In this document: positions 388 through 22,842 of the stretch, piece after piece
Layout of the letters: each line of letters begins with the position of its first letter
Numbering within the stretch: the stretch's first letter is position 1
Source: a virus
Virus record (IMG/VR): IMGVR_UViG_3300031963_000946
Location: 1-23,353 of that record
Reading direction: 5' to 3' (one strand)
Length of the DNA stretch: 23,353 bases
Notes under the pieces: generated by a model
What the model saw: only the letters and a program-made list of their open reading frames with translations
Databases searched by the model: none
Told to the model about the DNA's origin: nothing
Made by a program: the position numbers and the translations under genes

Positions 388-392
388 TACAC
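388..392 (-). promoter_or_regulatory. GTGTA element upstream of the left Thr-Pro gene (candidate promoter)
   Basis: On the minus strand this reads AAATAA-GTGTA-TTAATAATTTG and ends 24 bases before the ATG at 363. It is one of eight copies of the same pentamer in intergenic gaps of this window, each pointing at the following gene. Its role as a promoter is inferred. Confidence 0.35.
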
Positions 393-404
393 TTATTTCA
401 TATT

Positions 405-430
405 TATCGATAAAAATAAAAAAATCGATA
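405..430. other. Inverted repeat in divergent intergenic region
   Basis: TATCGAT (405-411) and ATCGATA (424-430) form 7-bp perfect arms around a 12-base A-rich loop. The repeat lies between the two divergent GTGTA elements (388-392 minus, 434-438 plus). It could be an operator for both directions or a weak hairpin; nothing in the sequence decides. Confidence 0.35.
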
Positions 431-433
431 TAG

Positions 434-438
434 GTGTA
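434..438 (+). promoter_or_regulatory. GTGTA element upstream of PhoH operon (candidate promoter)
   Basis: Sequence GATATAG-GTGTA-ATATTTACT, 28 bases before the PhoH start codon at 467. A separate TATAAT lies closer to the ATG, and no Shine-Dalgarno is visible between. Same element as at 388, 10210, 13827, 16254, 18770, 22329 and 22838. Confidence 0.35.
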
Positions 439-466
439 ATATTTACTATTATAGTTATAATTCATT

Positions 467-1285
467 ATGTCTAAAAGCAAAAAAAATAAGCGTGTAACAC
501 AGACTGAAATTCAAAATGAAAGCCGAGCCGTGGAAGAACAAGTGCAAGAAAAAAGGGACTGTTCTCTTCACGTAACACAAAGACCAAAAATAAGCTTTTC
601 ATTAAATATAAAAGAAAGAACCGACCTAACAGATAAACAAAAAAAAATATTTGAAGTAGCTGCTAATAAAAATACAAAGTGCGTATTTATAGATGGACTG
701 TACGGATCTTCTAAATCTTACTTAGCCGTAATGTCTTCGTTAAAACTTTTGAATGCAAAAAAAGTAGACGAAATAATATTTATTAGAAACCCGGTTGAGT
801 CCTCTACTACAGGAAAAATTGGCTTCATTCCAGGAACTAGTGAAGAAAAAATGGCTCCATATAATGCTATTTTATTTGATAAGCTCGAAGAAATGTTGTC
901 GGAATCAGATATTGCTAGATTAAAAAAAGATAATCGAATTAGCTGCCATCCTGTCGGTTTTGTAAGGGGTCGTTCTTGGAATTGTAAGGCTGTTATCGTT
1001 GACGAAGCTTCTTCTATGACCTGGGATGACCTGTTTCTTATTCTAACAAGATGCGGCGAATTTACTAGAATCTTTTTTATAGGAGATTCTGTTAATCAGA
1101 ATGATATTGGAGCTAAATCTGGGTTCAGAAAAATGTTTAATTTGTTTAACGATCAGGAAAGTAAGGATTTTGGCATTCATTGTTTCGAACTTAGAGAGTA
1201 TTCAGACATTGTTAGATCTGGATTACTAAGATTTGTAATGGAAAAAGCTGGTTTAATTAAAAAACCTAAAATTGACAATTATTAA
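467..1285 (+). CDS. phoH: PhoH-like P-loop ATPase
   Basis: A 272-residue protein with the PhoH ATPase core. Visible motifs are Walker A GLYGSSKS at residues 77-84, the R-x-P-V-E segment near 107-111 followed by GFIPG (119-123), the RGRSW segment at 167-171, Walker B VIVDE at 176-180, and FIGDS-x-N-Q-x-D at 204-213. The first 40 or so residues are a basic, low-complexity tail. PhoH-like proteins are common in marine and other environmental phages; their exact role is unsettled, with RNA or ribosome-linked ATPase activity proposed. It is the first gene of the plus-strand operon that continues into the sugar-modifying genes, 15 bases before the next start. No Shine-Dalgarno precedes the ATG. Confidence 0.9.
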   Translation: MSKSKKNKRVTQTEIQNESRAVEEQVQEKRDCSLHVTQRPKISFSLNIKERTDLTDKQKKIFEVAANKNTKCVFIDGLYGSSKSYLAVMSSLKLLNAKKVDEIIFIRNPVESSTTGKIGFIPGTSEEKMAPYNAILFDKLEEMLSESDIARLKKDNRISCHPVGFVRGRSWNCKAVIVDEASSMTWDDLFLILTRCGEFTRIFFIGDSVNQNDIGAKSGFRKMFNLFNDQESKDFGIHCFELREYSDIVRSGLLRFVMEKAGLIKKPKIDNY

Positions 1286-1300
1286 TTAAATTTTACTTAC

Positions 1301-2002
1301 GTGAATTACTCATTAGCTTTTACTTCATATAAAAGTTTTAAATATATAAAAAAACAACTTGAACTTGATTATTTTAATTTGTCCGATAATAGAATAGACG
1401 AAATTGTTATTCAAGATGACTGTTCTAGCGATTACTCTCTTATTCAGCCTTATGCAAATGAAAGAATAAAGGTTTTTCAAAATGCTGAAAATTTATCACC
1501 ACTTTTGAATAGGGTGAAACTAGTTGAAAACTGTAAAAACAACATGGTTTTATTGATGGATTCGGATAATTTTTTAGATATTGATTCTTTTTCTAAAATA
1601 AATAACTGCGAATATAAGGATAACGTTATATATTGTCCGGACTACGCCAAGCCAGCCTTTAAATTTAAGGAGTTTTCAAATCTTGAAATAAACTTTTCTT
1701 TCGCTAAAGAACAAATAAATACTCTTGGCATGCAAATATTTTTAAACAACGGCAATTACTTTGTTCCCAAAAAAGCTTACCTTGAAGTAGCTAAAAACAT
1801 AGACGTAAAATTTGCGCATTTCGCGGTAGACGTAATTTATTTTAACTATTTATGGTTAAAGGAGGCTGGTAATAAATTAAAATGTGTAAAAGATTATGAG
1901 TATGATCACACGTTAAGAAGCGATGGATACTACTCGATAAACGAAAATCCACGCACACAAAAAAAATTAATGGAAGTTATTGAATTGTATTTGAATTTAT
2001 GA
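1301..2002 (+). CDS. Glycosyltransferase, GT-A fold (family 2-like)
   Basis: A 233-residue protein beginning MNYSLAFTSYKSF. The pattern is that of a nucleotide-sugar-dependent GT-A enzyme: a first strand, then DEIVIQDDCSSD (about residues 33-44, the family-2 strand with the D-D-x-S motif), and later VLLMDSDNF (about 83-91), which carries the D-x-D metal-binding motif. Donor and acceptor cannot be read from the sequence. The start is a GTG at 1301; the next in-frame ATG lies far downstream and would remove the N-terminal half of the fold. It overlaps the next gene by ATGA, indicating translational coupling. It is a member of a four-gene glycan block. Confidence 0.75.
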   Translation: MNYSLAFTSYKSFKYIKKQLELDYFNLSDNRIDEIVIQDDCSSDYSLIQPYANERIKVFQNAENLSPLLNRVKLVENCKNNMVLLMDSDNFLDIDSFSKINNCEYKDNVIYCPDYAKPAFKFKEFSNLEINFSFAKEQINTLGMQIFLNNGNYFVPKKAYLEVAKNIDVKFAHFAVDVIYFNYLWLKEAGNKLKCVKDYEYDHTLRSDGYYSINENPRTQKKLMEVIELYLNL

Positions 2003-2592
2003 AAAAATATATACAAATCGGAGCAAATATTGGAAACGACGATTTTCAGAAAGAAATTGAGGCTTTGTCTGAAAAGTCATTTATTTTGCTTGTTGAGCCG
2101 AATCCAAAACTAATTGATGAATTAAAATTAAATTATAAATTACTGGCAAGCAAGCATGAGATAGCTTTTTTAAATAAAGCTATAACTACAAAAGACCAAG
2201 AAGACGCCAAGCTGTACATATATCAAGAGAGCGGGCATTCGTCTTTGATCAGGCGAAAATCTCATATGATCCCATTGGAGGAAATTGGCGTTGACGCAAT
2301 TAAATTTAATACTTTATGCGAAATTTACAATATAGACGAGGTTGAGCTTTTACAGATTGATACCGAGGGGTTGGATTACGAGATAGTTAACTCTATTGAG
2401 TTTTCGAAAATAAAAATTCATACATTAATTTTTGAATGCTGGGGTCATCCTGACGACGATTTAAATAAAATATACAGAACTGGCGCAGACTTTTTAGAAA
2501 AAGATGTGAAAAATAAACTCCTTGAATTGTACGACTGGGGCGGCGCGTGGTTAGGCAATATGCCTAATCATAAATTAACTTTAAAAAAATGA
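1999..2592 (+). CDS. FkbM-family SAM-dependent methyltransferase
   Basis: A 197-residue protein with the FkbM methyltransferase signature: the SAM-binding motif YIQIGANIGND near the N terminus, LLVEPNPKLI around residue 30-39, and LLQIDTEGLDYEIVNS around 116-131, which is diagnostic of the family. FkbM-type enzymes usually O-methylate sugars or polyketides. Between two glycosyltransferases the likely substrate is a sugar hydroxyl, possibly a cap on a growing glycan. Both ends overlap their neighbours by ATGA (1999-2002 and 2589-2592), so the genes are probably translated as a coupled chain. Confidence 0.88.
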   Translation: MKKYIQIGANIGNDDFQKEIEALSEKSFILLVEPNPKLIDELKLNYKLLASKHEIAFLNKAITTKDQEDAKLYIYQESGHSSLIRRKSHMIPLEEIGVDAIKFNTLCEIYNIDEVELLQIDTEGLDYEIVNSIEFSKIKIHTLIFECWGHPDDDLNKIYRTGADFLEKDVKNKLLELYDWGGAWLGNMPNHKLTLKK

Positions 2593-3404
2593 TTATTTTT
2601 GAAAGACTTGGTGGTTGGGGCTTGGCTAATACACTATTTCAAATAGCTACAACGGTTTCTCTTGCTAAACTTAACAATACAGATTACGGCTTTCCAAGTG
2701 ATTGTTATTTTAGATTTGCAAGATATAATCCGAATGCCTTAGGTAGGATTTTTTTTAAAAAAGAGCTTCCTTGGGTAGATATTAATCTTATAAAAAATCA
2801 AGACTTTGAAAGATGGGGGTTTGGGGGAGTAGGCTTTAAGACGTTACCAACCACATATAAGAATATGATAATTGATGGCTTTTTTCAATCTGAAAAATAC
2901 TTCATACAGCACCGTGATTATATTTTGGAATTATTTGAAATAAAAGATGAATATAAACTTTATATCCAGAGTAAATATAAGCATTTAATAGACGAAGACG
3001 CGTGTTCTCTTCATGTTCGGAGAGGTGACTATGCCAACGCTAGAGAACTTATTATTTTAAATAAGGATTATTATGATAAGGCAACAGAAATCATTGGAAA
3101 AAATAAGCTTTTTGTTATATTTTCTGATGATATAGATTGGTGTAAAAAAAACTTGGATTATTTACCTAACAAGTTTTACATAGAAGAAAAAAACGATCTT
3201 TTAGAAATGTATTTAATGTCTTTGTTTAAGAAGCACATAATAGCAAATAGTACTTTTAGTTGGTGGGGAGCGTGGATGGCAGACAATTCAAAAGTGATAA
3301 TGCCAAATCCTAGCAGTAACTGGTTTAGTGAAGAATTCTATAAAGAGACTTGGAGGGACAACATTTATACTGATTTAATTTGTTCCGGCTGGGAATACTT
3401 ATGA
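2589..3404 (+). CDS. GT11 fucosyltransferase-like glycosyltransferase
   Basis: A 271-residue protein matching glycosyltransferase family 11 (alpha-1,2-fucosyltransferases): an N-terminal GWGLANTLFQIA segment (residues 9-20, equivalent to the family's G-x-G-N-Q-x-F-Q), the nucleotide-sugar-binding HVRRGDY at 142-148, and NSTFSWWGAWM at 220-230, the most characteristic motif. Known members move fucose from GDP-fucose to galactose at the 2 position; the actual donor and acceptor here are unknown. A phage-encoded member suggests modification of host surface glycan or of virion proteins. It is coupled by ATGA overlap to both flanking genes. Confidence 0.85.
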   Translation: MIIFERLGGWGLANTLFQIATTVSLAKLNNTDYGFPSDCYFRFARYNPNALGRIFFKKELPWVDINLIKNQDFERWGFGGVGFKTLPTTYKNMIIDGFFQSEKYFIQHRDYILELFEIKDEYKLYIQSKYKHLIDEDACSLHVRRGDYANARELIILNKDYYDKATEIIGKNKLFVIFSDDIDWCKKNLDYLPNKFYIEEKNDLLEMYLMSLFKKHIIANSTFSWWGAWMADNSKVIMPNPSSNWFSEEFYKETWRDNIYTDLICSGWEYL

Positions 3405-4135
3405 AAAAAAAATATATTATAGGTATATGTTCGGTAGGCGAACAATATCATGCAAAAACTATAAAACTCATCAAAGAAATTAATGCTCTTATTGATATAG
3501 ATTTTTTGGTCCTGACAGATGAACCAAAAAATTTTGAAGGGTTTCCAAATGTTTTTTTAGAGAAGTACCAATATAAGTCTGCTAAATATTTAAATAAAAT
3601 TTTTTCGTTTCATGACAAGAAAATAATTTTCGAAAGAGGGTTTTTACATTACGATACAGTACTTCTTTTGGACGCAGATCATTCTATAAGACCAAATCTT
3701 TATGAGGGCTTATTAGATTTTGATTCAGATAAAATTAGTTGCGGAGCTTATCCGCAAATTATTTGGAGGCATCCCTCCGACTGCTCTATAGAAAATTTTT
3801 TATGCGGGTTAACAGGAAGGGTTCCGTACGGAATAAAATTTAAAGAATACGCGATTTCTAAAAATTATAATTTAGATGGAGCTTTTTTGATTCAGGAAAG
3901 TTTTTTACTTATTAAGTCCGATGAAAAGTCTATTTTTGATTTTTTGAAAACCTGGGACGATTTAAGTGTTTTTTGTGAAGAGCAAGACATTATCAGGGGG
4001 CAACATGTTCTTGGTTACGGCGAGGGGTACAGTATCGGGGTATCTTTGAACACCGCAGGAATAAAAATAATAGAAGATGATTCGTGCGTCAATAGGCTAT
4101 CTAGATCGTTTAAACATTTTGCATGGGAAAAATAA
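3401..4135 (+). CDS. Putative glycosyltransferase, GT-A type
   Basis: A 244-residue protein beginning MKKKYIIGICSVGEQYH. The segment VLLLDADHSIRPN near residue 86-98 carries a D-x-D metal-binding motif, and EQDIIRGQHVLGYG near the C-terminal third resembles the late motif of glycosyltransferases that build on galactosides. I chose the ATG at 3401, which overlaps the previous stop as ATGA like the two preceding junctions; an in-frame TTG at 3380 would add seven residues and a longer overlap. Last gene of the glycan operon; a hairpin terminator follows at 4160-4186. Confidence 0.68.
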   Translation: MKKKYIIGICSVGEQYHAKTIKLIKEINALIDIDFLVLTDEPKNFEGFPNVFLEKYQYKSAKYLNKIFSFHDKKIIFERGFLHYDTVLLLDADHSIRPNLYEGLLDFDSDKISCGAYPQIIWRHPSDCSIENFLCGLTGRVPYGIKFKEYAISKNYNLDGAFLIQESFLLIKSDEKSIFDFLKTWDDLSVFCEEQDIIRGQHVLGYGEGYSIGVSLNTAGIKIIEDDSCVNRLSRSFKHFAWEK

Positions 4136-4151
4136 AAATTAGCATTTTTTT

Positions 4152-4799: not shown

Positions 4800-4883
4800 A
4801 GATATAATTACATTTTTTGTTTAGAAAAAGATAATAAAATAGATTTAAACTTATTAACTGTATATAATATTTTTTTAAAGCAT
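4800..4883. promoter_or_regulatory. Divergent intergenic region, 84 bp, AT-rich
   Basis: Separates the minus-strand peptidase from the plus-strand zinc-ribbon gene. On the plus strand a TATAAT lies at 4863-4868, inside CTGTATATAATATT, 15 bases before the ATG; on the minus strand ATGTAATTATAT lies next to the start. Both contain TGTA followed by AT-rich sequence, weaker versions of the GTGTA element elsewhere. Promoters in both directions are likely here but not proven. Confidence 0.35.
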
Positions 4884-5441
4884 ATGAAATTATACTGCAC
4901 CGAATGTTTTGCTAAAACAGAATATAAATTTTCTAAGCCAAAATTTTGTCCAGAATGCGGCGCTAAGGTTGGAGCTTTAAACGTTTCAGTTTCTAGCGGG
5001 GGTATCAAAACTTCTGTTTCAACCGCTTCTGACAATCAAAACCTAGTTAGAATTAAAGAGTTAGAGTTAGAGTTAGAAAAAATCAGAGCGTCTTCAAGAT
5101 TGGGTCACTTAACCAAAAGTAAAAATCTTAATGAGGGTATTAATGAGGATATTGATGATGAAATTGATGAAGAAGAGTCTGAGGATTATTTAGCAACTCA
5201 AAGACACATTGCTAATTTCAAAAGAAGTAAAAATAAATCCGGTATAGTTATAGAAAGAAGTCAGAATTCTTCTGGAGTTACATTTGGTCAGCTTATAGAA
5301 AATGCTTCAAAAAACCCATCCTCTGCATCTGCCGATTTTTTGCCTAAGCCTTCTGCTCCTAGCGAAGCTGAGCGACAAAATATCTTAAATCAGCTAAGAG
5401 CTGAATCTTCTAGTCAGGCTAGAGTCATAGAAATAGAATAG
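4884..5441 (+). CDS. Zinc-ribbon protein with acidic disordered tail
   Basis: A 185-residue protein whose first 30 residues form a zinc ribbon: C5-x2-C8 and C22-P-E-C25-G, a classic four-cysteine knuckle pair. The rest is low complexity: a short coiled-coil-like stretch rich in Leu and Glu (about residues 52-64), an acidic patch with many Asp and Glu (about 85-105), and a Ser/Ala-rich end. I do not recognise a specific family. It lies four bases upstream of the sigma factor gene, so they are almost certainly co-transcribed. That pairing suggests a transcription co-factor, as T4 late transcription needs accessory proteins besides its sigma, but this is an inference from position only. Confidence 0.7.
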   Translation: MKLYCTECFAKTEYKFSKPKFCPECGAKVGALNVSVSSGGIKTSVSTASDNQNLVRIKELELELEKIRASSRLGHLTKSKNLNEGINEDIDDEIDEEESEDYLATQRHIANFKRSKNKSGIVIERSQNSSGVTFGQLIENASKNPSSASADFLPKPSAPSEAERQNILNQLRAESSSQARVIEIE

Positions 5442-5445
5442 CAAT

Positions 5446-6171
5446 ATGGAGTTTGACGAAGAAAGCTTTAAAAAAGAAAAACCTAATTTTGAAAATTGTT
5501 TGTTCATTATTAATGAAGAACTTTTGAAAAGAAAAGGAAAATGGCGTTTAACAGCTATAGCTTGGATGGATTTTGATGACGTATCTCAAAAAATTAGACT
5601 TCATATTTTTAATAAGTGGAGTCAATGGGATAATGCTAGACCGATTAGACCCTGGCTTAATACTATAATTACAAATCAGATTACAAATTTAATTAGAAAC
5701 AATTATTCTTCATTTTCGAAGCCGTGCTCTCAGTGTAAATATAATCTTGGCGGAAATTTATGCGAAATATATGGAACTCAGAACAATTCATGCGCAATAT
5801 ATTCAAAATGGGAATCGTGTAAAAAGAATGCGTATGATATAAAAATGCCAGTTAGTATTCATGAAAACCTTTATGATAATAACGAATCTTCCGGCTCTCA
5901 GTCGGCAATGGATATTCCAGATTCAGATGCATATATAGATTATGACTCTAAAATTAGTAACTTTCATAAAAAAATAAAAGAAAAGCTATCAGTAGTAGAA
6001 TGGAAAGTTTACAACTATCTTTACGTAGAAAATAAAAATGAGATAGAAACAGCTCAAGCTATGGGTTATAAAACCAGCGAGAAAAATAGATCTCCTGGAT
6101 ATAAACAAATTAAAAAAATAAAAAATAAGATATATAAAATTGCTAAAACTTTAATTTACGATATATCATGA
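5446..6171 (+). CDS. Phage RNA polymerase sigma factor with Cys-rich insertion
   Basis: A 241-residue protein with sigma-70-type organisation. Region 2 spans about residues 40-86: MDFDDVSQKIRLHIFNKW, then RPWLNTIITNQITNLIRN, matching the D-x-D-D-V-x-Q and W-L-x-x-I-x-x-N pattern. A C-terminal region 4-like part (about 178-240) includes LSVVEWKVYNYLYVENKNEIETAQAMG as a candidate helix-turn-helix. Between them is an unusual insertion with five cysteines (C94, C97, C106, C116, C125) that could bind zinc or an Fe-S cluster. Likely role: redirect host RNA polymerase to phage late promoters, as T4 gp55 does. It sits directly before the packaging genes and overlaps the next start by ATGA. Confidence 0.78.
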   Translation: MEFDEESFKKEKPNFENCLFIINEELLKRKGKWRLTAIAWMDFDDVSQKIRLHIFNKWSQWDNARPIRPWLNTIITNQITNLIRNNYSSFSKPCSQCKYNLGGNLCEIYGTQNNSCAIYSKWESCKKNAYDIKMPVSIHENLYDNNESSGSQSAMDIPDSDAYIDYDSKISNFHKKIKEKLSVVEWKVYNYLYVENKNEIETAQAMGYKTSEKNRSPGYKQIKKIKNKIYKIAKTLIYDIS

Positions 6172-7334: not shown

Positions 7335-7339
7335 TTTCT

Positions 7340-8272: not shown

Positions 8273-8274
8273 TT

Positions 8275-10206
8275 ATGTGGGAAGTAGGAAATCAAGATAT
8301 AATTATTCCGGATCGTCATTTTAACGAAGAGTTAAAAGAAATACGCGGCGAAATGGATGACGCTACTGCAAGAATAACTCTTGCAAAATTTTTAAAATCG
8401 AATATAGGATTAACTACTGAATTATTTTTAGGAATTAAGCTCGAAAAATATCAGGAGCTTAACATTAAAGCCATGTTTAATAGAAATTTTTCTATGCTAA
8501 CATGGGGAAGAGGCGCTTCGAAAAGTTTTTGTGCGGCAGTGTTTTGTATTCTTCAGTGCATATTTGAACCGGGAACTAAAATATTAATTGCGTCTGCTAA
8601 TTTTAGAACGTCTCGCAGGCTTTTTATGGAGATAGATAAAATGCTGAACGCCAAGGATGCTGGATTGGCTAAGCAATGCTTTAGAGACCCTATCAAAAGA
8701 AACGACGAATACGTGTATCCAGTTGAGCTTCCAACTGGCGGATCAATAACAGCAATTCCGCTTGGCGGCGAGAATACTAGAGGGTATCGCGCGTCTGTTT
8801 TAATAATTGATGAGTTTTTATTGATGCCTAAAGACATTGTTGAGAGAGTTTTAATGCCATTTATGAGTTCTCCTCTTGACGTTGCTGAAAGAATTAGAGT
8901 TAGAGAAGTAGAGGATCAAATGATAAAGGCTGGCAGAATGCAGGAAAAGGATAGAACTGTATTTAAAAATGTAAATAAAATGATAACTCTAAGTTCGGCA
9001 AGTTATACTTTTGAATACTTATTTGAGCTTTACTCTATTTGGTCTGATATCATCAGAGATCCAAATTTACTTAATGATTCTGAAAAAGTAGGAGAAGATA
9101 GAATGGAGGCTATGAAAAACTCTACTTATTTTGTATCTCAAATGAGTTACGAATCGCTTCCTGAGCATATGATAGACCAAGGCGTTATTCAATTAGCTAA
9201 AAGCGGAGGCATAAGTCACTCGGCGTTTCTTAGAGAATACTGCGCTCGCTTCGTGGATGGTGGTGATGGATATTTTTCTCCTAAAAAAATGATACTTTGC
9301 ACCGTTCCTAATGGTCAATACCCAACTACTAAAATAGCAGGAGATAAAGATAAGAAATATATTTTAGCTATTGATCCGAGCTTTAGTGCTTCTAAAAGTT
9401 CCGACTATTTTGCAATGGCTGTGATGGAATTGAACGAAGAAGACGGGACTTCTGTGTATGTTCATGGTTATCAAAAAGCTGGCGCGAGTGTTCAAGACCA
9501 TATTAAATATTTTTATTATTTATTAACGCATTTTAACATTAGATTGGTTATTATTGACAATGCGGGCGGTGATCAATTTATTGAAGCAGCTAATGGATCG
9601 GCTATTTTTAAAGCCAAGGGAATGAAAGTAGGGTTTTTTGAGTTTAACTCTGATAAAGAAGGGGAAGAATATATCGAAATGCTTAAAGAAGCTAAATCTC
9701 AATATAATTTTGATACAGGAACTATTTGTATTAAGCAGTATTTTACTTCTTCATTTATAGGTAGAGCTAACAGTTATTTGCAAAGCTGTATTGATCATAA
9801 AAGAGTTTGGTTTGCAAGTGCTTCATGTGCTCATCCAGATATTATTCATCAAATGTTTTCATTGAATATACCAATAGATTATATTTATCCGAAAGGTATA
9901 GATGATGCGCCAGAAGACGCCGTGGAGAGAGCTAAGCTTGGAGTTAGAGACTTCATGGAGCAGCAGGATTTTATAATTAAAGATACAAAAGATCAGTGCG
10001 CGCTAATACAGGTTTCGTCTACTGCTCGCGGAACTCAAAGTTTTGATCTGCCTGCTCATTTGAGAAGACTAACTACTGCTAATAAGCCTAGAAAAGATAA
10101 CTATTCTGCCTTAATGCTTGGTAATTGGGCTGTTAAGGTTTATTTTGATTTAAACTCTGAAAAGGCTGAGAAGCTTCAGTACAATTTTACACCCTTTTTT
10201 CTATAA
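8275..10206 (+). CDS. terL: Terminase large subunit
   Basis: A 643-residue packaging motor. The ATPase half shows Walker A GRGASKS at residues 78-84 (a variant of the usual G-x-x-x-x-G-K-[ST]), the motif-like ILIASANFRTS near 103-113, and Walker B VLIIDE at 175-180. The nuclease half has the RNase H-like acidic strands ILAIDPSFS (D367) and LVIIDNAGGD (D428), with further acidic residues (D543, D544) near PEDAVERAK. It would cut concatemeric DNA and pump it through the portal. It follows the nuclease gene by two bases; the portal gene is next after a 67-base gap with a GTGTA element. No Shine-Dalgarno at its ATG. Confidence 0.93.
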   Translation: MWEVGNQDIIIPDRHFNEELKEIRGEMDDATARITLAKFLKSNIGLTTELFLGIKLEKYQELNIKAMFNRNFSMLTWGRGASKSFCAAVFCILQCIFEPGTKILIASANFRTSRRLFMEIDKMLNAKDAGLAKQCFRDPIKRNDEYVYPVELPTGGSITAIPLGGENTRGYRASVLIIDEFLLMPKDIVERVLMPFMSSPLDVAERIRVREVEDQMIKAGRMQEKDRTVFKNVNKMITLSSASYTFEYLFELYSIWSDIIRDPNLLNDSEKVGEDRMEAMKNSTYFVSQMSYESLPEHMIDQGVIQLAKSGGISHSAFLREYCARFVDGGDGYFSPKKMILCTVPNGQYPTTKIAGDKDKKYILAIDPSFSASKSSDYFAMAVMELNEEDGTSVYVHGYQKAGASVQDHIKYFYYLLTHFNIRLVIIDNAGGDQFIEAANGSAIFKAKGMKVGFFEFNSDKEGEEYIEMLKEAKSQYNFDTGTICIKQYFTSSFIGRANSYLQSCIDHKRVWFASASCAHPDIIHQMFSLNIPIDYIYPKGIDDAPEDAVERAKLGVRDFMEQQDFIIKDTKDQCALIQVSSTARGTQSFDLPAHLRRLTTANKPRKDNYSALMLGNWAVKVYFDLNSEKAEKLQYNFTPFFL

Positions 10207-10209
10207 AAC

Positions 10210-10214
10210 GTGTA
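10210..10214 (+). promoter_or_regulatory. GTGTA element upstream of portal gene (candidate promoter)
   Basis: Reads CTATAAAAC-GTGTA-GAATTATC just after the terminase stop codon and 59 bases before the portal ATG. The preceding TATAAA resembles a -10 hexamer. Confidence 0.35.
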
Positions 10215-12292: not shown

Positions 12293-12295
12293 GTT

Positions 12296-13822: not shown

Positions 13823-13826
13823 TAAA

Positions 13827-13831
13827 GTGTA
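13827..13831 (+). promoter_or_regulatory. GTGTA element upstream of 101-residue protein gene (candidate promoter)
   Basis: Reads TTAATAAA-GTGTA-GTAAGGTATATAAATA, 22 bases before the ATG at 13854. A TATAAATA octamer, like the T4 late promoter, follows the pentamer immediately; both fall in a 31-base gap. Confidence 0.38.
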
Positions 13832-13853
13832 GTAAGGTATATAAATAAATAAT

Positions 13854-14159: not shown

Positions 14160-14162
14160 GCT

Positions 14163-16130
14163 ATGATTAATGATGCTTCAATTGTTAGAATTGAACGTCA
14201 GCCAGCTGAGATGCTTTCTACAAGCGGATTTGGCGTCCCAGTAGGGGGATCACAGGGTCAAATTTTAGCTAAATCTACTAATAATAATTACGATACCACT
14301 TGGGTAGATCCAAGCATTGGAGTGCCAGCTGGCGGTTCAATTGGTCAATTTTTAGTAAAAAAAACCAATAGCAATTACGATACTAATTGGCAAGATTTAC
14401 CATTAGTTCAAAGTACGGAATATTTGCTTCAAGCAGTTTATAACGGATCTGGATCTACTATAAACAAAGGCAGTATAGTATCTTTTATTGGAGGAGATGG
14501 ATCTTATCCAATTGTAGAAAAAGCCGTGTCTAATAACGTACACGATTCAGATGTAATTGGATTAGCAATTGATAATATATTAAATGGCGAATACGGATCA
14601 ATAATAGTTAATGGAATTTTAGATGGGGTTAATACAATCAATTTTGAAGTTGGAGATAAATTATATCTTTCCCCAACTATAGATGGAGCTATTACAAATT
14701 CTTCACCAACAGCTCCTAATCATGCTATTTTTATAGGTTTTTGTATTAAAAAAGACGCCATAGATGGAGTAATATATGTAAGTTTGAATATCGGAACACA
14801 TTTAGATCTCCTTCACGATGTAAATATTAACTTACCATCAAGCGGCGATGTTTTATTTTTTAATGAAAATAATATTTGGGTTAATAAGAAATTAGATGTT
14901 TATAACATATCCGGAGCTGTAAATTCTGGTGATTTTAAAAATATAGTTTTTCAAACCGGCAATCAAAACATATCAGGAATAAAAACATTTTTCCATAGAC
15001 CTATTTTATCTGGCTCACAAATACAAAACAGTCAATCTGGATTAGCGATGTTAGGAGAGGTTGTGACTATAAACGGTTCGCAAACTATTACTGGACCAAA
15101 AGTTTTTGGTGCAAATGTTAGCTTTTCTAATTCTACTATTGACTACACTACCTCTGAAGTAAATTTTACAGAAACTGATTTTATTTTAGATTCTTATTCT
15201 TTATCTGGATTAGCTTTAAATTTAAGGGGATTTTTCGTTGATGTTGATTCAAATCAAATAGTTAATGGAAGAAAAACTTTTAGGTCTGGAATAAGATTAA
15301 TATCCCAAAATTCTTCTGCCTTGGATGTTTCCGGTTCTGCGTTTTTTGATCAAAGACCAACCGTAAATGGCTCTGGAGTATTGTTAAGCGGAGATATTGA
15401 TACGTCGAATTTTTATCCTAATAATAATCCAAGTGGTTTTATCACGGGGATTGATCTTTCAAATTATGCGAAAAGTTCAGATATATTTAATTCTGCTGTA
15501 GAATGGACGCCAAATCATACTTTAGCTGATGGAACCCGTTATTTAGCCGGAGATCTGGTTTACTCTAATGGAAAAGTTTATAAAGCTAACTATGCTAATG
15601 AAAGTATACCCGTAACAGATTCGTTATATTGGACAGATTTAGGTCTCGGATACCGTTTAAACATTGACGGTCGAGATATTCCTAATATTCCGCAGGTTGA
15701 TGTTTCCAATCTATATCCAAATAATAATCCGAGCGGTTTCATTACTGGCATCGACACGTCAAATTTCTATACGAACGATAATCCGAGCGGTTTCATTACT
15801 GGCATCGACACGTCAAATTTCTATACGAACGATAATCCGAGCGGTTTCATTACTGGTATCGACACGTCAAATTTCTATACGAACGATAATCCGAGCGGTT
15901 TCATTACTGGCATCGACACGTCAAATTTCTATACGAACGATAATCCGAGCGGTTTCATTACTGGCATCGACACGTCAAATTTCTATACGAACGATAATCC
16001 GAGCGGTTATATTTCAAGTAATTCAACGTCAGTACCAGGAGCAGATTATATTTCAAATATTATTCAGATTCCTCAAACTGGTTACGACGCGATAATTCCA
16101 CGGGCGAATACTCTTTACATCATTATTTAA
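14163..16130 (+). CDS. Modular tail fibre with 18-residue repeats and CBM-like module
   Basis: A 655-residue protein. Two copies of G-V-P-x-G-G-S-x-G-Q-x-L-x-K-x-x-N-x-N-Y-D-T-x-W lie in the first 75 residues, a motif known from fibre proteins. A middle domain (about 85-215) is followed by a module shared with the fibre at 12296 (TGNQNISGIKTFF, then QTITGPKVF). Residues about 445-495 (Y-L-A-G-D-L-V-Y-x-x-G-K-V-Y-K-A, then P-V-T-D-S-x-Y-W) match the pattern of CBM5/12 carbohydrate-binding modules. An 18-residue repeat with N-P-S-G-F-I-T-G follows in six tandem copies. The end, YDAIIPRANTLYIII, resembles common phage fibre termini, so the stop looks genuine. There is no S74 domain. Confidence 0.82.
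   Translation: MINDASIVRIERQPAEMLSTSGFGVPVGGSQGQILAKSTNNNYDTTWVDPSIGVPAGGSIGQFLVKKTNSNYDTNWQDLPLVQSTEYLLQAVYNGSGSTINKGSIVSFIGGDGSYPIVEKAVSNNVHDSDVIGLAIDNILNGEYGSIIVNGILDGVNTINFEVGDKLYLSPTIDGAITNSSPTAPNHAIFIGFCIKKDAIDGVIYVSLNIGTHLDLLHDVNINLPSSGDVLFFNENNIWVNKKLDVYNISGAVNSGDFKNIVFQTGNQNISGIKTFFHRPILSGSQIQNSQSGLAMLGEVVTINGSQTITGPKVFGANVSFSNSTIDYTTSEVNFTETDFILDSYSLSGLALNLRGFFVDVDSNQIVNGRKTFRSGIRLISQNSSALDVSGSAFFDQRPTVNGSGVLLSGDIDTSNFYPNNNPSGFITGIDLSNYAKSSDIFNSAVEWTPNHTLADGTRYLAGDLVYSNGKVYKANYANESIPVTDSLYWTDLGLGYRLNIDGRDIPNIPQVDVSNLYPNNNPSGFITGIDTSNFYTNDNPSGFITGIDTSNFYTNDNPSGFITGIDTSNFYTNDNPSGFITGIDTSNFYTNDNPSGFITGIDTSNFYTNDNPSGYISSNSTSVPGADYISNIIQIPQTGYDAIIPRANTLYIII
15696..16008 (+). repeat. 54-bp tandem repeat inside the fibre gene
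   Basis: Units start at 15696 (diverged), 15750, 15804, 15858, 15912 and 15966 (last one incomplete). The four complete units from 15750 are identical except for one base (15857, T for C). Each encodes the 18 residues ending N-P-S-G-F-I-T-G. A further single diverged unit lies upstream near 15400. High DNA identity points to recent tandem expansion. Confidence 0.95.
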
Positions 16131-16144
16131 TACAAAATAAATCT

Positions 16145-16216
16145 TTATTTTGCGGCTGCCATCATCGACGTCGAACCATACCCTGAAGCAACTAGTATAA
16201 AAATACAGATATACAT
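16145..16216 (-). CDS. Possible 23-residue hydrophobic peptide (uncertain)
   Basis: On the minus strand an ATG at 16216 opens a 23-residue frame starting MYICIFILVASGYG and ending MMAAAK, then TAA. It has a short hydrophobic N terminus like a mini membrane peptide and covers the GC-richer part of the gap. There is no Shine-Dalgarno and it is antisense to the flanking genes. It may well be chance. Confidence 0.15.
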   Translation of the reverse strand: MYICIFILVASGYGSTSMMAAAK

Positions 16217-16253
16217 GCTTGCATATAAAAAAAATATATTTATTTTTAAACAA

Positions 16254-16258
16254 GTGTA
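16254..16258 (+). promoter_or_regulatory. GTGTA element upstream of spanin candidate (candidate promoter)
   Basis: Reads TTTAAACAA-GTGTA-ATATAAAATG, ending only nine bases before the GTG start at 16268. If it is a -10-type element, the transcript would be almost leaderless. Confidence 0.33.
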
Positions 16259-16267
16259 ATATAAAAT

Positions 16268-16864: not shown

Positions 16865-16865
16865 T

Positions 16866-16991
16866 ATGAAATCACAAACCAAGATAGAATTTTTTATTGA
16901 AAAAATTAATAATCTAACAAGCAGGTATCCAGCACAATGTCTTTTTGGATTAGGGTTTATTTTTGGTTTTATAATTGGGTCTATTTTTTAA
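16866..16991 (+). CDS. Small single-TM protein (41 residues)
   Basis: ATG at 16866, two bases after the spanin candidate's stop, with AAGGA ten bases upstream. The 41-residue product begins MKSQTKIEFFIEKINN and ends in one membrane segment from about Cys25 to Phe41 (LFGLGFIFGFIIGSIF), with a cytoplasm-like charged N terminus. It could be a holin, antiholin or other lysis accessory. Gly-rich membrane helices with G-x-x-x-G-like spacing favour oligomerisation. Too small for family assignment. Confidence 0.55.
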   Translation: MKSQTKIEFFIEKINNLTSRYPAQCLFGLGFIFGFIIGSIF

Positions 16992-17040
16992 ATATAGAAT
17001 GTATTTAATATAAAATAAATACGTTTTATAAAATATAAGT
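16992..17040 (+). other. 49-bp AT-rich gap before the GAF-like gene
   Basis: No Shine-Dalgarno. Contains AATGTATTTAATATAAAATAA, a TGTA-plus-AT element similar to but weaker than the GTGTA sites, and short inverted arms GTATTT and AAATAC. Confidence 0.3.
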
Positions 17041-17688: not shown

Positions 17689-17707
17689 TAGCGCATAATA
17701 ATATATT

Positions 17708-18734: not shown

Positions 18735-18766
18735 TATATAAAATTATTTGTGACATTTTTTATATA
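18735..18766. other. AT-only inverted repeat between lysis and head genes
   Basis: Arms TATATAAAA (18735-18743) and TTTTATATA (18758-18766) are perfect 9-bp complements around 14 bases and start right after the endolysin stop. The right arm runs into the GTGTA element at 18770. It could be a weak hairpin terminator or an operator over the head-gene promoter. Confidence 0.4.
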
Positions 18767-18769
18767 ATT

Positions 18770-18774
18770 GTGTA
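18770..18774 (+). promoter_or_regulatory. GTGTA element upstream of prohead protease (candidate promoter)
   Basis: Reads TATATAATT-GTGTA-AATTTGAATT, 36 bases before the ATG at 18811. The same stretch also contains TTTG (18747-18750), 22 bases, then TAAATTTG (18773-18780), which fits the -33/-7 consensus of Bacteroidota promoters (TTTG and TAnnTTTG). Confidence 0.42.
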
Positions 18775-18810
18775 AATTTGAATTACAATAAAAATAATTT
18801 ATTTTTTATC

Positions 18811-20487
18811 ATGCCAAAATTTGAAAATTCTTATATCTGGGTCAGCGACCTTATTGCAGAAGAATATAGACCGTCGGCAAAAATAGAGTTCCCGTTTCAA
18901 ACTATTTTCGCGTCTGAACCCGTTAAGATTTTTTTGCCTGAAGAGAAAGATCTTACTGTTGCAAAGGCTGGTATAGATTCATTAAAGCCCTTTTTAGATT
19001 CATCAATTGATTTGGAAAAAAACTATGATTTAATTGGCGTTGCTTTCAATGCTTTTGTTGTAAATAGGGCTAATAAAAACGGTCAAGTTATTTCTACTGA
19101 CGTAGCTTTATCATCTGTTGAAAACTTTAAGTTTAAGCCGATGAACATTGAGCATAAAAGAAAAAATGTCGCGGGTTTGATTACGAGCTATGGATTTAGC
19201 GAATACGGAACCGATAAGCCTTTGTCATTAGAAGAGGTTAAAGATAAAAAAGAGCCTTTCAACGTTGTCTTAAGTGGTTTTGTGTGGAGAGTTGTTAATG
19301 AAGAGTTCGCCGAAAAATTAGAAGCTTCTTCTGACCCGTCTTCAGAATCTTATTTGACTATCTCCACAAGTTGGGAGATGGGATTTAAAAATTTTAATAT
19401 TGCCAAAGGCTCTTTAAACTTATCCGAAGCCTCTATTATTTCGGACGAAAATGCTGTTTCTGAAATGAAAAATAAATTAATGCATTTTGGCGGAAATGGC
19501 TTAGCTGATGATGGACAGCCAGTTTATATCAACTTAGTCGGAGAGGTTTTACCTCTTGGAATTGGCTTCACAAACAATCCTGCGGCTGACGTAAAAGGCG
19601 TGAAAGTTTTTGGGTCCGATGATTTAGAAGATCAACAAGAAGTTAGCGAAGATGCTTCATCTAATACAAAAGAAGCCGTAGAAAGTTCCCAATTAGAAGA
19701 AAAACTTGTAGAAACAAATATAATTTCAAATAAATTAGACACGGATAACTTAGCTGCTGCATCTAACTCTTTTGAAAAAGAAATAAATAAAAAGGAAAAT
19801 AATAAAATGCTTATAAAGTCAATTCAAGATTTAACTGATGACTCTTTGAAACAGATTTGCGCTACTGATATTCGCTCGCTGTTTGAAGAGGAGATTAAGA
19901 AGGCTGGAGAAAAATTTGCCGAAGCGCAAGAAGCTAAAGATAAGCTTGTCGCAGAAGCGGAGAAAACAAAAGCTGAACTTGAAGCTCAACTTGAAGAGTT
20001 AAAACAAACTGGCGAACAGTTAAAAGCTGAACTCGAAAAAATTAGAGTCGAAGCCGAAGCTCGCGAAAAAGAAGAGTCATTCCAGAATAGAATGACCACT
20101 TTAGACGAAGAGTTTTCTTTGGACGACGAAGAGCGCCAAGTTATTGGTGAGCAAATTAAAGATTTAGATCAAGAAGCTTTCGACAAGTGGTATAAAGCTT
20201 TTAATGTTTTTGCCAAAAGCAAAAACAAGAAATTAATGATGGAGAAAAAAGAGGCTGAGGAAAAAAATAAAGAAAAAGAAGAAACCAAAGCCGCCTCCGT
20301 TGAAGAAAAAGAATCTGCTGAGGCAATTGCTTCAGAGCAAGAAAAAGAGCAAGAAGTCGCTAATATGCTTGAAAAAGCTGAAGTTGAGGAAGTTGCTCTT
20401 CCAAATGGTGCAGTTGCCGAGGATTCGCTTAGGCAGAAATTTGCCAAAGCTTTCAATAGTAACACTATCAAAGTAGAAAATAAATAA
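18811..20487 (+). CDS. Prohead protease fused to scaffold
   Basis: A 558-residue protein. The N-terminal part (about 1-210) is a prohead serine protease candidate: NIEHKRKNVAGLITSYGF near 112-129 places the catalytic His at 115, and SSESYLTISTSWEMGF near 177-192 supplies the nucleophile Ser (185 or 187). Residues about 270-330 are acidic linker. From about 333 the sequence is charged alpha-helix and coiled coil rich in Glu, Lys and Ala, as in capsid scaffolds. The protease would cut scaffold and capsid protein during maturation. I use the ATG at 18811; an upstream TTG (18778) would add 11 residues. An internal start is listed separately. Confidence 0.8.
   Translation: MPKFENSYIWVSDLIAEEYRPSAKIEFPFQTIFASEPVKIFLPEEKDLTVAKAGIDSLKPFLDSSIDLEKNYDLIGVAFNAFVVNRANKNGQVISTDVALSSVENFKFKPMNIEHKRKNVAGLITSYGFSEYGTDKPLSLEEVKDKKEPFNVVLSGFVWRVVNEEFAEKLEASSDPSSESYLTISTSWEMGFKNFNIAKGSLNLSEASIISDENAVSEMKNKLMHFGGNGLADDGQPVYINLVGEVLPLGIGFTNNPAADVKGVKVFGSDDLEDQQEVSEDASSNTKEAVESSQLEEKLVETNIISNKLDTDNLAAASNSFEKEINKKENNKMLIKSIQDLTDDSLKQICATDIRSLFEEEIKKAGEKFAEAQEAKDKLVAEAEKTKAELEAQLEELKQTGEQLKAELEKIRVEAEAREKEESFQNRMTTLDEEFSLDDEERQVIGEQIKDLDQEAFDKWYKAFNVFAKSKNKKLMMEKKEAEEKNKEKEETKAASVEEKESAEAIASEQEKEQEVANMLEKAEVEEVALPNGAVAEDSLRQKFAKAFNSNTIKVENK
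19792..19809 (+). promoter_or_regulatory. Internal Shine-Dalgarno and ATG for a nested scaffold
   Basis: AAGGA followed by an A-rich spacer of about ten bases and ATG at 19807, in frame with the protease gene. Clear Shine-Dalgarno sequences are rare in this window, and the same AAGGA with the same spacing precedes the 41-residue gene at 16866. Confidence 0.55.
19807..20487 (+). CDS. Nested in-frame scaffold protein (predicted)
   Basis: If translation starts at the internal ATG at 19807, the product is the C-terminal 226 residues of the protease gene: MLIKSIQDLTDDSLKQIC, then a long coiled coil with many Glu, Lys and Ala (about residues 25-105), then a charged tail. The start lies exactly at the border between the low-complexity linker and the coiled coil. 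This is the arrangement of phage lambda, where the scaffold Nu3 is made from an internal start inside the protease gene C. It would give scaffold in excess of protease from one gene. Not proven without protein data. Confidence 0.5.
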   Translation: MLIKSIQDLTDDSLKQICATDIRSLFEEEIKKAGEKFAEAQEAKDKLVAEAEKTKAELEAQLEELKQTGEQLKAELEKIRVEAEAREKEESFQNRMTTLDEEFSLDDEERQVIGEQIKDLDQEAFDKWYKAFNVFAKSKNKKLMMEKKEAEEKNKEKEETKAASVEEKESAEAIASEQEKEQEVANMLEKAEVEEVALPNGAVAEDSLRQKFAKAFNSNTIKVENK

Positions 20488-20525
20488 ATTAACAAATAAA
20501 TAAACAAATTAACAAATAAATAAAA
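20486..20525 (+). repeat. 20-bp direct repeat, A-rich leader of decoration gene
   Basis: Two copies of AAATTAACAAATAAATAAAC (20486-20505, 20506-20525; the last base differs) fill the gap between the scaffold stop and the ATG at 20528. With almost no G or C the leader should be unstructured. No Shine-Dalgarno is present. Confidence 0.8.
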
Positions 20526-20527
20526 AT

Positions 20528-21064
20528 ATGGCTACAATTAGACCTTTTAGAGATTATGATGAGCATGAGGTTATCAACCTTTTTGCTTTTGACGGTGACT
20601 TGGGAAATAAAGGCACTTTCGTTACCGCTGTCGGTAATGGTTTTGACCTTTCCAAAGAAGCCGCTTTTGGAAATGACAGTTTTATTGATGGAACTGTCTC
20701 CGCTAGATTTAACGTCGCAAGTAAAGTTACTGCTGCTCCTTCTGGAACTGTTCCAGCTAAGGTCCTCGGAATGATGCTTAAGGATGTTAGATCGGTTGAT
20801 GAAAATGGATACCCATTAAAGTTTGAACCACGTAAAGCTGCTGAGCGCGATGTTATCATTAACGGTGAAGCTGTCCCCGTTGTTAAACGCGGTTTATTCC
20901 TTTACAGCGGCGTTGTTGGTACTCCCGCTTTCGGAAGTGGTCTTGCTATTTCTGATGCTGGAAACGGTGAGCTTAAAGTTACAAATGATCCAACCTTAAT
21001 GGTTGCTAAAGCGCTTGGTCCGAAGGACGCAAATAACTTTGTCTTGATCGACATTAAGCTTTAA
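20528..21064 (+). CDS. Putative capsid decoration protein
   Basis: A 178-residue beta-rich, Gly-rich protein starting MATIRPFRDYDEHEVINLFA. There are no membrane or signal segments. Its place between scaffold/protease and major capsid protein is the usual place of head decoration or stabilisation proteins, and parts (GTFVTAVGNGF, PAKVLGMMLKDVR, KRGLFLYSG) read like that class. Codon use is shifted (CGT and CGC for Arg, GTC, CTT), as in the capsid gene, which suggests high expression. Translation starts after an A-rich repeated leader instead of a Shine-Dalgarno. Confidence 0.65.
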   Translation: MATIRPFRDYDEHEVINLFAFDGDLGNKGTFVTAVGNGFDLSKEAAFGNDSFIDGTVSARFNVASKVTAAPSGTVPAKVLGMMLKDVRSVDENGYPLKFEPRKAAERDVIINGEAVPVVKRGLFLYSGVVGTPAFGSGLAISDAGNGELKVTNDPTLMVAKALGPKDANNFVLIDIKL

Positions 21065-21076
21065 TACAACGCTAAA

Positions 21077-21102
21077 TAGAAAATAAAATTTAGAAAATAA
21101 AA
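21077..21102 (+). repeat. 12-bp direct repeat in the A-rich capsid gene leader
   Basis: TAGAAAATAAAA occurs at 21077-21088 and 21091-21102, directly before the ATG at 21107. Like the 20488-20527 leader it is nearly free of C and G, has no Shine-Dalgarno and should be unstructured. Confidence 0.65.
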
Positions 21103-21106
21103 AAAT

Positions 21107-22228
21107 ATGAAAATTAAATTTGAAAAAACACCAGAGCAAGTTGAACTTGTGAAAGCCATGGGTTCAAGTAATAAGGTTCAGGCTCTTGAGGCTCAGGACG
21201 CTTTTGCTGCCTTTATTGCTCCAGTTATTCAGGAAGTTCTTTTGCAAGCAGGTACCGCTGCCGCTATTTATGAAGACATGAGTTATGATGAAGATGATTC
21301 TCCATCTATTCCTGTTGATCTTTACTATGGCGAGCCAGAGGGTACATTTTCTGTTTGGCAGCAAACAGTTGCCGGAGGTCTCCCAACTCAGCAAATTGGC
21401 AGCTTTCAAGAGATCAAAGTTTCTACCTATCCTCTTGATTCCGCCATTAGCTTTGATAAGCGCTATGTGCGCAAATGCCGCTTAGACGTTGTTGCTAGAG
21501 GTCTTGAAAGACTTTCTAATGACGTTCTTATTAAGCAAGAAAGAAATGCTTGGTACGTTGTTCTTAAGATGCTTGCTGATGCCGAGACAAAAACCGGCAC
21601 AGGTGGAGCTACTTCTAAGCACGTTTTTAGAGCCGGAACAGCTGGCACATTCCTGCTTGACGATGTTAATAAAGCAATGACCCTCTTAAAAAGATTAAAC
21701 GCTTCTTATAATTTTTCTTCTCCTATCGGGAACGAAGGAAGAGGCTTAACTGATCTTTATGTTTCTCCTGAAATCATGGAGCAGGTCAGAGGCTTTGCAT
21801 ATAATCCAGTTAATACTAAGCAGGCTGCATTAGGAACTACCTCTATTCCTCTCACGGATTCTCAGCGCGAGCGCATTTATAGCGCTGCTGGAATGAGTGA
21901 AATCTTCGGGGTGACTCTTCATGAGCTTCTTGAGCTTGGGGTTGGTCGCAAGTACAACGTCCTTTTCAATGAGATCGCTACAGGTAAATCATATGGAAGC
22001 GGCGCAGGTACAGCTTTCGGAGCTAATGACCAAATCCTTGTCGGTCTTGATCGTTCGCGTAGATCGTTTATCCGCACCTTGGCTGTTAATGCTGAGACCG
22101 GTGGAAGCTTCAATCTCCGCCCAGATGACCAATTCTTGGCTCGTTCTGGAAAAGTTGGTTTCTATGGCGGTCTTGAAGAAGGTCGCGTCGGACTTGATGC
22201 TAGAGCAGTTGCCGGCATCATCGTTTAA
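21107..22228 (+). CDS. Major capsid protein (HK97-fold candidate)
   Basis: A 373-residue protein of the length and position expected for the major capsid protein: after protease/scaffold and decoration gene, before a strong terminator. The central part (about 95-160) has an F-D-K-R-Y-V-x-x-x-R-L-D-V-V-A-R-G segment and a long helix with ERNAWYVVLKML, like the spine helix of HK97-fold proteins. Later parts (LTDLYVSPEIMEQVRG near 210-225, IFGVTLHELLELGVG near 267-281) fit the A-domain. Codon choice differs from the rest of the window: Arg is often CGC or CGT where other genes use AGA, and third-position C is common. That is expected for the most abundant virion protein. Confidence 0.85.
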   Translation: MKIKFEKTPEQVELVKAMGSSNKVQALEAQDAFAAFIAPVIQEVLLQAGTAAAIYEDMSYDEDDSPSIPVDLYYGEPEGTFSVWQQTVAGGLPTQQIGSFQEIKVSTYPLDSAISFDKRYVRKCRLDVVARGLERLSNDVLIKQERNAWYVVLKMLADAETKTGTGGATSKHVFRAGTAGTFLLDDVNKAMTLLKRLNASYNFSSPIGNEGRGLTDLYVSPEIMEQVRGFAYNPVNTKQAALGTTSIPLTDSQRERIYSAAGMSEIFGVTLHELLELGVGRKYNVLFNEIATGKSYGSGAGTAFGANDQILVGLDRSRRSFIRTLAVNAETGGSFNLRPDDQFLARSGKVGFYGGLEEGRVGLDARAVAGIIV

Positions 22229-22255
22229 TAAAAGACTAAAAATAAAATCAAAGAC

Positions 22256-22286
22256 AAGCCCCGTTTATCGGGGCTTTTCTTTTTTA
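22256..22286 (+). terminator. Strong Rho-independent terminator after capsid gene
   Basis: Perfect 8-bp stem AAGCCCCG (22256-22263) and CGGGGCTT (22269-22276) with a 5-base loop, followed by TTCTTTTTT. It is the most GC-rich hairpin in the window and ends the head-gene transcript 28 bases after the capsid stop codon. Confidence 0.93.
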
Positions 22287-22328
22287 TTTAACAAATTTTC
22301 TTTTAGATAGATTTTATTGATATTAAAT

Positions 22329-22333
22329 GTGTA
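22329..22333 (+). promoter_or_regulatory. GTGTA element after the capsid terminator (candidate promoter)
   Basis: Reads ATATTAAAT-GTGTA-AACTATTAAG, 52 bases before the ATG at 22386. A new promoter is expected here because the terminator at 22256 ends the upstream transcript. Confidence 0.4.
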
Positions 22334-22385
22334 AACTATTAAGTTCGTTTGTATTTTATAAATTATTTTAATAATGTAAAAGTCT

Positions 22386-22829
22386 ATGATTCCAGCTATT
22401 TATGATTTACCAGATGCTTATAGGGGAGATGATTATGGTCCGATCTTATTAAAAATAAAAGACGCTAATGGAAATTATATTCCATTTATTGGGTCTCAAA
22501 TAAATTTGCATGTAAAAAATAAAAAAAATTGTGCTGTAGTTTTAAGTTGGTCTACATTAGATGGCACCATAGATAGACCAGATGATTTTTCAATCGTATT
22601 AAAACAAAAAATTGGATGCAGAATGGGAATGCCTCCAGGAAAATATAGTTACGATTTGCAAATTTTAGATTCTAAAAAAACAGCAAGTTATTTAAGGGGA
22701 ACGCTATCAGTAACGGGAGATGTAACTGATATAGTATTTTGTGACTGTGAATATAATGGGGGTTCTGCTGAGCAATTAAGTGATTCATTTTGCTCAATTG
22801 AATCAGCTATTTCTTTATCTCGAATGTAA
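22386..22829 (+). CDS. Small virion-type protein, baseplate/BppU-like pattern
   Basis: A 147-residue protein. The first 110 residues follow a pattern common in phage tail or baseplate accessory proteins: I-x-D-L-P-D near the start, Y-R-G-D-D-Y-G-P-I-L-L-K-I-K-D, a later IDRPDDFSIVLKQ, then PGKYSYDLQILDS and SYLRGTLSVTGDVTD, suggesting one immunoglobulin-like beta sandwich. The C-terminal 30 residues are Ser- and Cys-rich and acidic. It precedes the right-edge Thr-Pro repeat gene, and the two may form one tail/fibre transcription unit, although a further GTGTA element separates them. The specific family is not certain. Confidence 0.6.
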   Translation: MIPAIYDLPDAYRGDDYGPILLKIKDANGNYIPFIGSQINLHVKNKKNCAVVLSWSTLDGTIDRPDDFSIVLKQKIGCRMGMPPGKYSYDLQILDSKKTASYLRGTLSVTGDVTDIVFCDCEYNGGSAEQLSDSFCSIESAISLSRM

Positions 22830-22837
22830 AAACTCTT

Positions 22838-22842
22838 GTGTA
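22838..22842 (+). promoter_or_regulatory. GTGTA element upstream of right Thr-Pro gene (candidate promoter)
   Basis: Reads AACTCTT-GTGTA-TATATTGAAATAA, 17 bases before the ATG at 22860, in a 30-base gap. The left-edge paralogue has the same pentamer at a similar distance (24 bases). Confidence 0.36.

Follow-up and report, generated by a model that had tools for sequence, protein, structure and literature searches.

GTGTA as a probable -10-type late promoter element in a clade of large tailed phages without cultured members

We propose that the pentamer GTGTA serves late promoters as their -10-class element in a phage lineage known to us from uncultured virus records, and, judging from sequence evidence, we put the probability of this reading at roughly 0.85. 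A preliminary description of the DNA had suggested that GTGTA might be the -10-type element of a phage-specific late promoter. This suggestion is supported by the oriented enrichment of the element, its conservation in orthologous gaps, its absence from the interiors of operons and its spacing to start codons. The stretch analyzed (hereafter, the window) is the 23,353-base virus record IMGVR_UViG_3300031963_000946, which is probably a fragment. It encodes terminase, tail-fibre, lysozyme-like and PhoH-like genes; its portal, protease/scaffold and capsid genes are candidates that we named by position. We infer lateness from gene content (portal, protease/scaffold and tail genes), and we use the term phage-specific in view of the conserved phage sigma genes and the contrast with TTGACA/TATAAT early promoters.

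In the window, eight copies of GTGTA occur at the places given in the preliminary description, each reading in the same direction as the gene that follows. These sites, two variants of the element and an associated terminator are as follows (distances are to the start codon).

388..392, minus strand: GTGTA, 29 nt upstream of gene 363 (minus strand)
434..438, plus strand: GTGTA, 33 nt upstream of PhoH-like gene 467
4809..4813, minus strand: ATGTA variant, 14 nt upstream of gene 4799 (minus strand)
10210..10214, plus strand: GTGTA, 64 nt upstream of portal-position gene 10274
13827..13831, plus strand: GTGTA, 27 nt upstream of gene 13854
16254..16258, plus strand: GTGTA, 14 nt upstream of the GTG start of lipoprotein-like gene 16268
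16999..17003, plus strand: ATGTA, 42 nt upstream of gene 17041
18770..18774, plus strand: GTGTA, 41 nt upstream of protease/scaffold-position gene 18811
22256..22276, plus strand: intrinsic terminator hairpin at a unit boundary, just upstream of the element at 22329
22329..22333, plus strand: GTGTA, 57 nt upstream of gene 22386
22838..22842, plus strand: GTGTA, 22 nt upstream of gene 22860

This accumulation in gaps exceeds chance, as had been estimated beforehand: GTGTA is present in 8 of 13 oriented upstream gaps, compared with 0.7 expected, where the test covers gaps of at least 20 nt (1130 bp) and counts divergent gaps for both genes. Among 2000 dinucleotide shuffles, the maximum count was 4. 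GTGTA also tops the ranking of all pentamers by over-representation in these gaps (Poisson 6e-7, or about 6e-4 after 1024 tests). In the window as a whole, its frequency is ordinary (24 copies versus 19.0 expected), and the signal is therefore positional. Since 16 of the 24 copies lie inside genes, the five-base core alone is too short, and its context must help to specify promoters.

The preliminary description mentioned a preceding TATAAA- or TAATAA-like stretch, which did not withstand analysis as a conserved element: there is only a preference for A/T just upstream of GTGTA. In these small samples, upstream positions carry at most about 0.33 bits of information, versus 1.4-2.6 bits for each base of the core. 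By the same measure, conservation upstream is too low at every position for a shared -35, in agreement with what had been noted. It had also been proposed that gaps without the exact pentamer have TGTA variants. This part stood for the ATGTA at 4809-4813 (minus strand), which is in register at 14 nt from its start codon and for which 15 of 28 orthologous regions have GTGTA at 13-17 nt. It did not hold as clearly for the other two variants: the ATGTA at 16999 is 42 nt from its start codon, where 20 of 44 orthologous regions have GTGTA, mostly at 14-15 nt, and the CTGTA at 4858 directly adjoins the TATAAT in a putative TAGATT-N17-TATAAT promoter.

The preliminary description had asked whether the element is enriched upstream of genes outside the window. 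It is, strongly and in the oriented sense, among about 150 related contigs that we gathered using the sigma and terminase proteins as queries. In clade A, whose terminases are 87-99% identical, GTGTA occurs in the forward direction in 73 of 123 tandem gaps, versus 2 in reverse. The corresponding counts are 52 of 83 versus 1 in clade B (terminase about 60% identical), where the core is longer (GTGTAA), and 56 of 226 versus 4 in the distant, sigma-based clade D. The latter set comprises relatives of the L034 sigma (about 40% identity with the sigma of the window) and two contigs from GTDB genomes; these two (40-42% sigma identity) also exhibit the gap signal on their own. It is important to consider that related genomes are non-independent samples. 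Identical gaps were removed in all three sets, as were gaps sharing a 16-mer in clade D, and the thinning of upstream regions relied on similarity rather than on phylogeny.

Conservation at individual gene boundaries points in the same direction. We counted distinct upstream regions of orthologous genes in which GTGTA lies 12-100 nt before the start codon. At unit boundaries, the element was found for the portal-position gene in 37 of 40 regions, for gene 18811 in 41 of 45, for gene 22386 in 15 of 16, for gene 13854 in 11 of 14 and for the PhoH-like gene in 37 of 56; the counts for genes 16268 and 22860 were 11 of 18 and 3 of 3. Upstream of genes internal to operons, GTGTA was absent: sigma (0/85), gene 6168 (0/74), the ERCC4 nuclease (0/67), terminase (0/61) and lysozyme (0/13). 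Orthologs of gene 21107 have it in 2 of 39 upstream regions. All six of these genes lie closely behind another gene. In tandem gaps containing both a terminator and GTGTA, the terminator was the upstream one in 13 of 13 cases.

Spacing to the start codon adds a property that the preliminary description did not mention. Counted from its G, GTGTA lies at distances that set in sharply at 14 nt, peak at 14-18 nt and are almost never below 14. For distances of 14, 15, 16, 17 and 18 nt, respectively, there are 9, 4, 6, 1 and 2 sites in clade A, 16, 11, 12, 3 and 3 in clade B, and 37, 26, 8, 17 and 6 in clade D. Within the window, the copy at 16254 is the only exact GTGTA at 14 nt. Summed over 1557 starts, 163 copies of GTGTA are located 13-18 nt before the start codon, versus 4.7 expected, and no one-base variant is comparably enriched at this position. 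ATGTA occurs 20 times versus 11.2 expected (1.8-fold) and GTGTG 7 times versus 2.6, a small number, and the remaining variants other than GTATA are near or below expectation. GTATA, with 44 versus 12.3, was considered as a separate signal and rejected, since its excess is explained at least partly by GTGTATA read two bases on.

Early promoters of the sigma70 type (TTGACN-N16-18-TAnnnT) provide a ruler for interpreting this onset. The distance from the first base of a -35 element to +1 is 35 nt. In these genomes, the distance from the TTGAC of the early promoters to the start codon begins at 34-35 nt, and in clade D it is exactly 35 nt for 29 of 62 promoters. This equality suggests that transcription in both promoter classes begins at the start codon or right beside it, and, combined with the onset at 14 nt, it would place GTGTA at about -14 to -10. 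Shine-Dalgarno sequences were found at none of the short-distance starts (0 of 163 for GTGTA and 0 of 71 for sigma70 promoters at 34-38 nt); at starts that are 28-70 nt from GTGTA, 12 of 94 have one. Many late transcripts should thus be leaderless or nearly so, and for gene 16268 we predict such a transcript.

Promoters of the host type were found in relatives, in stretches of small genes with higher G+C. There, GTGTA is missing from tandem gaps (0 of 16 in L153 and 0 of 15 in L147), and TTGACA-N17-TAnnnT promoters are present instead. We call these stretches early because of their small genes of unknown function and their host-type promoters. We also looked for other promoter types, and rejected them. 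Bacteroidota-type promoters (TTTG / TAnnTTTG) had no forward excess, a GATT-type -35 was unconvincing genome-wide, and position-specific k-mers revealed no clear third class beyond -35 variants such as TTGCAA.

With regard to the protein that reads GTGTA, a phage sigma was found in every relative tested. In the window, the relevant operon contains the following features.

4840..4868, plus strand: TAGATT-N17-TATAAT, a candidate promoter of the host type preceding the sigma operon, with a weak -35 and no statistical result
4884..5441, plus strand: Zn-ribbon-like protein, first gene of the operon (best Pfam E 0.002, below the cut-off)
5446..6171, plus strand: phage sigma-like protein (sigma-1), with sigma70 region 2 and four invariant cysteines (94, 97, 106 and 116)
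8275..10206, plus strand: terminase large subunit, last gene of the operon

In the window, the front of this operon has no GTGTA, and the CTGTA there is at 4858-4862. Region 2 (PF04542, Sigma70_r2) is detected in all 39 members of the sigma-1 family (best E 1.3e-7), and the four invariant cysteines come just after it. There is no convincing match to region 4, with one of the 39 members having a sub-threshold hit (E 0.004). An AlphaFold model of sigma-1 is of moderate confidence (pLDDT 70, low in the Cys segment) and has C-terminal helices; the best matches in a fold search with it are sigma factors, and are marginal (E no better than 1.5e-3). We found no match to a phage RpoB in 19 distinct relatives of 40-200 kb, with positive controls, nor to a T7-type RNA polymerase in the relatives, with T7 as a positive control, although some records in both searches may be fragments. 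We consider sigma-1 (5446-6171) to be the probable reader, with modest confidence, because a single-element promoter fits a sigma that lacks a clear region 4 and because promoters other than GTGTA mostly precede its operon.

It is possible, if somewhat doubtful, that GTGTA is a late promoter read by a second sigma-like protein, and that sigma-1 does something else. This protein (sigma-2, about 196 aa, with region 2 and an HTH) is present in 11 of 11 viral records of at least 104 kb; as every large record has it, its phyletic distribution was uninformative. In most clade-B genomes, a TTGAC promoter is located 35-36 nt upstream of its gene, so that its expression should precede that of the late genes. 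In addition, GTGTA also precedes the sigma-1 operon in clade B, which implies that another initial source of sigma is needed there. However, the HTH of sigma-2 resembles region 4, yet GTGTA promoters have no -35, while sigma-1, without a convincing region 4, is encoded in the late module. Moreover, in the other clades the promoter in front of the sigma-1 operon is mostly of a kind other than GTGTA, as expected for a sigma that opens the late class. A host protein might also be responsible, namely an alternative sigma of the host, since our comparison covered promoters in phage genomes. We regard this explanation as improbable, given that phage sigma genes are maintained across the whole clade and that the element spans a clade whose sigmas are as little as about 40% identical, which likely infects several hosts.

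The remaining alternatives would make GTGTA something other than a -10 element. Activators of the MotA type occur in T4, and a similar phage activator could bind GTGTA to assist the host sigma70 holoenzyme, which would fit the apparent use of host RNA polymerase throughout, as no phage polymerase was matched. We consider this quite unlikely: where GTGTA is 14-16 nt from the start codon, it would itself span about -14 to -10, so that a separate host -10 would not fit between it and the inferred transcription start. In addition, sigma70-like sites are not in excess in the window's late region (45 versus 46 expected), and no -35 is shared. Even less credible, in our judgment, is a role in translation, with GTGTA acting within the mRNA leader in ribosome binding or in some other way. 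Such a role would explain why GTGTA is found on the coding strand a short way before start codons. However, the operon-internal genes need translation, yet they are without GTGTA in all of the 85, 74, 67 and 61 upstream regions mentioned above; furthermore, its distances span 14 to over 60 nt, and it is downstream of the terminator in all 13 gaps that have both.

Returning to GTGTA as a late promoter, we envision the following mechanism. The pentamer would be the core of the late promoters in large tailed phages of this uncultured and widespread clade, acting as a single -10-class element with no fixed -35 and with A/T-rich sequence on both sides. It would be read by host core RNA polymerase together with a phage-encoded sigma, most likely the region-2 Cys4 protein at 5446-6171, and transcription would start about 12-14 bp downstream of its G. 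Because the start codon is often 14-18 nt from this G, many late mRNAs would begin with the start codon or no more than about 4 nt away from it, and would be translated in a leaderless or nearly leaderless manner. The remaining late mRNAs would have longer leaders, some of them with a Shine-Dalgarno sequence. For early genes, host-type TTGACA-N17-TAnnnT promoters would be used, likewise placed so that transcription starts at or near the start codon. We give even odds to the broader proposition that both the early and late programmes of this clade are largely leaderless or nearly so, and that GTGTA is read by a new class of sigma with a putative zinc-binding Cys4 module after region 2.

We found no cultured phage relatives for the sigma, portal or major capsid proteins, and only terminase matches at 22-29% identity. 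A terminase search of GTDB genomes produced no relative. Sigma matches in GTDB led to two contigs (a Halobacteriovorax MAG and an uncultured bin), and these are too weak to name a host. The (near-)leaderless placement in both early and late genes hints that the host's ribosomes accept leaderless mRNAs well, which is a clue to the host. The GTGTA rule makes it possible to find late transcription units in a phage clade that has no cultured member. The system could also serve as a test bed for how transcription is initiated from a five-base element by a sigma that has no clear region 4, and for the extent to which phage mRNAs can be leaderless.

In its general kind, the proposed system would be a sigma-read phage late promoter, as both a shared element and a phage sigma were found. 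In T4, late promoters that depend on gp55 have TATAAATA, a single -10 element with no -35. The system described here is similar in that a small phage sigma would work with host core RNA polymerase at a single element upstream of late structural genes, and gp55 is a functional analogue. Unlike gp55, the sigma-1 family does not have PHROG 234 among its matches, and there was no significant hhalign match. We also saw no TATAAATA-like conservation around GTGTA, which is itself the top over-represented pentamer.

The middle and late promoters of phiEco32 (Kuravirus) are recognized by gp36; they have the consensus tAATGTAtA, lack a -35 and start transcription 6-8 bp downstream (PMC8948821). In that phage, the gp36 sigma works with host core RNA polymerase, and early genes are read by host sigma70 (PMC8948821). 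The promoters proposed here likewise have a single -10-type element containing TGTA without a -35, and the start position inferred for them fits. They differ in that the core is GTGTA rather than AATGTA and that leaderless or nearly leaderless placement is common. The sigmas themselves are not significantly similar in a single-sequence comparison (hhalign probability 0.2, E 0.32), and gp36 lacks the Cys cluster of sigma-1. Their common assignment to PHROG 1740 was considered as a sign of kinship and rejected, as this group is a catch-all that also matches other sigma types here. Phage 7-11, whose sigma directs host RNA polymerase to late genes (PMC8948821), has late promoters of the form GTAAtg-16-aCTA. 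Such promoters are bipartite, unlike GTGTA, around which no upstream element is seen.

A -10 region next to the ORF, giving leaderless mRNA, is described for Deinococcus-Thermus (PMC12340547). That case involves cellular genes and a host sigma, unlike the phage late class and different element considered here. The papers searched, which cover part of the literature, do not describe a late promoter for this clade. The kind of promoter is known, while the element, the clade and the leaderless or nearly leaderless placement are new as far as we have checked.

The similar proteins encoded at the window's two ends, 1-363 (-) and 22860-23353 (+), carry long PT-rich repeats (PTPTATPT...), and it may be these repeats that caused the assembly to stop there. 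In the tail-fibre-like protein of gene 14163-16130, the C-terminal part has near-identical tandem repeats encoding SNFYTNDNPSGFITGIDT; the gap at 16131-16267 contains a patch richer in G+C (GCGGCTGCCATCATCGACGTCGAACC), while the rest of it is A/T-rich.

Among related contigs (L205, L210-L216, L220, L222, L226, L233 and L235), a ATTGATTTTT-like stretch was repeatedly found 5' of the sigma operon, 16-21 nt ahead of a TATAAT-like box, within an intergenic gap of 35-46 nt. It may represent a promoter class of its own or a site where a regulator acts. Early-type regions of 10-20 kb with raised G+C (0.34-0.51) and numerous small ORFs are present in the relatives L153, L147, L140 and L146, and the leaders in such regions of clade A are A/C-rich (CTCAACCAACC...).

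All 11 viral records of at least 104 kb encode a second sigma-like protein of ~196 aa, with region 2 and an HTH. In most clade-B genomes a TTGAC promoter precedes its gene, at a distance of 35-36 nt from the ATG. Two D-clade genomes encode an additional, ECF-like sigma.

Further sigma-like proteins in relatives
G001:74322-74912 (-), second sigma-like protein
G002:38454-39050 (-), second sigma-like protein
L306-L317, second sigma-like protein
G023:23256-23441 (L287) (-), ECF-like sigma, D-clade
G021:19802-19990 (L300) (-), ECF-like sigma, D-clade

The window's own sigma-like protein (5446-6171) has four invariant cysteines, residues 94, 97, 106 and 116, directly C-terminal to region 2. These form a putative zinc module, which phiEco32 gp36 lacks.
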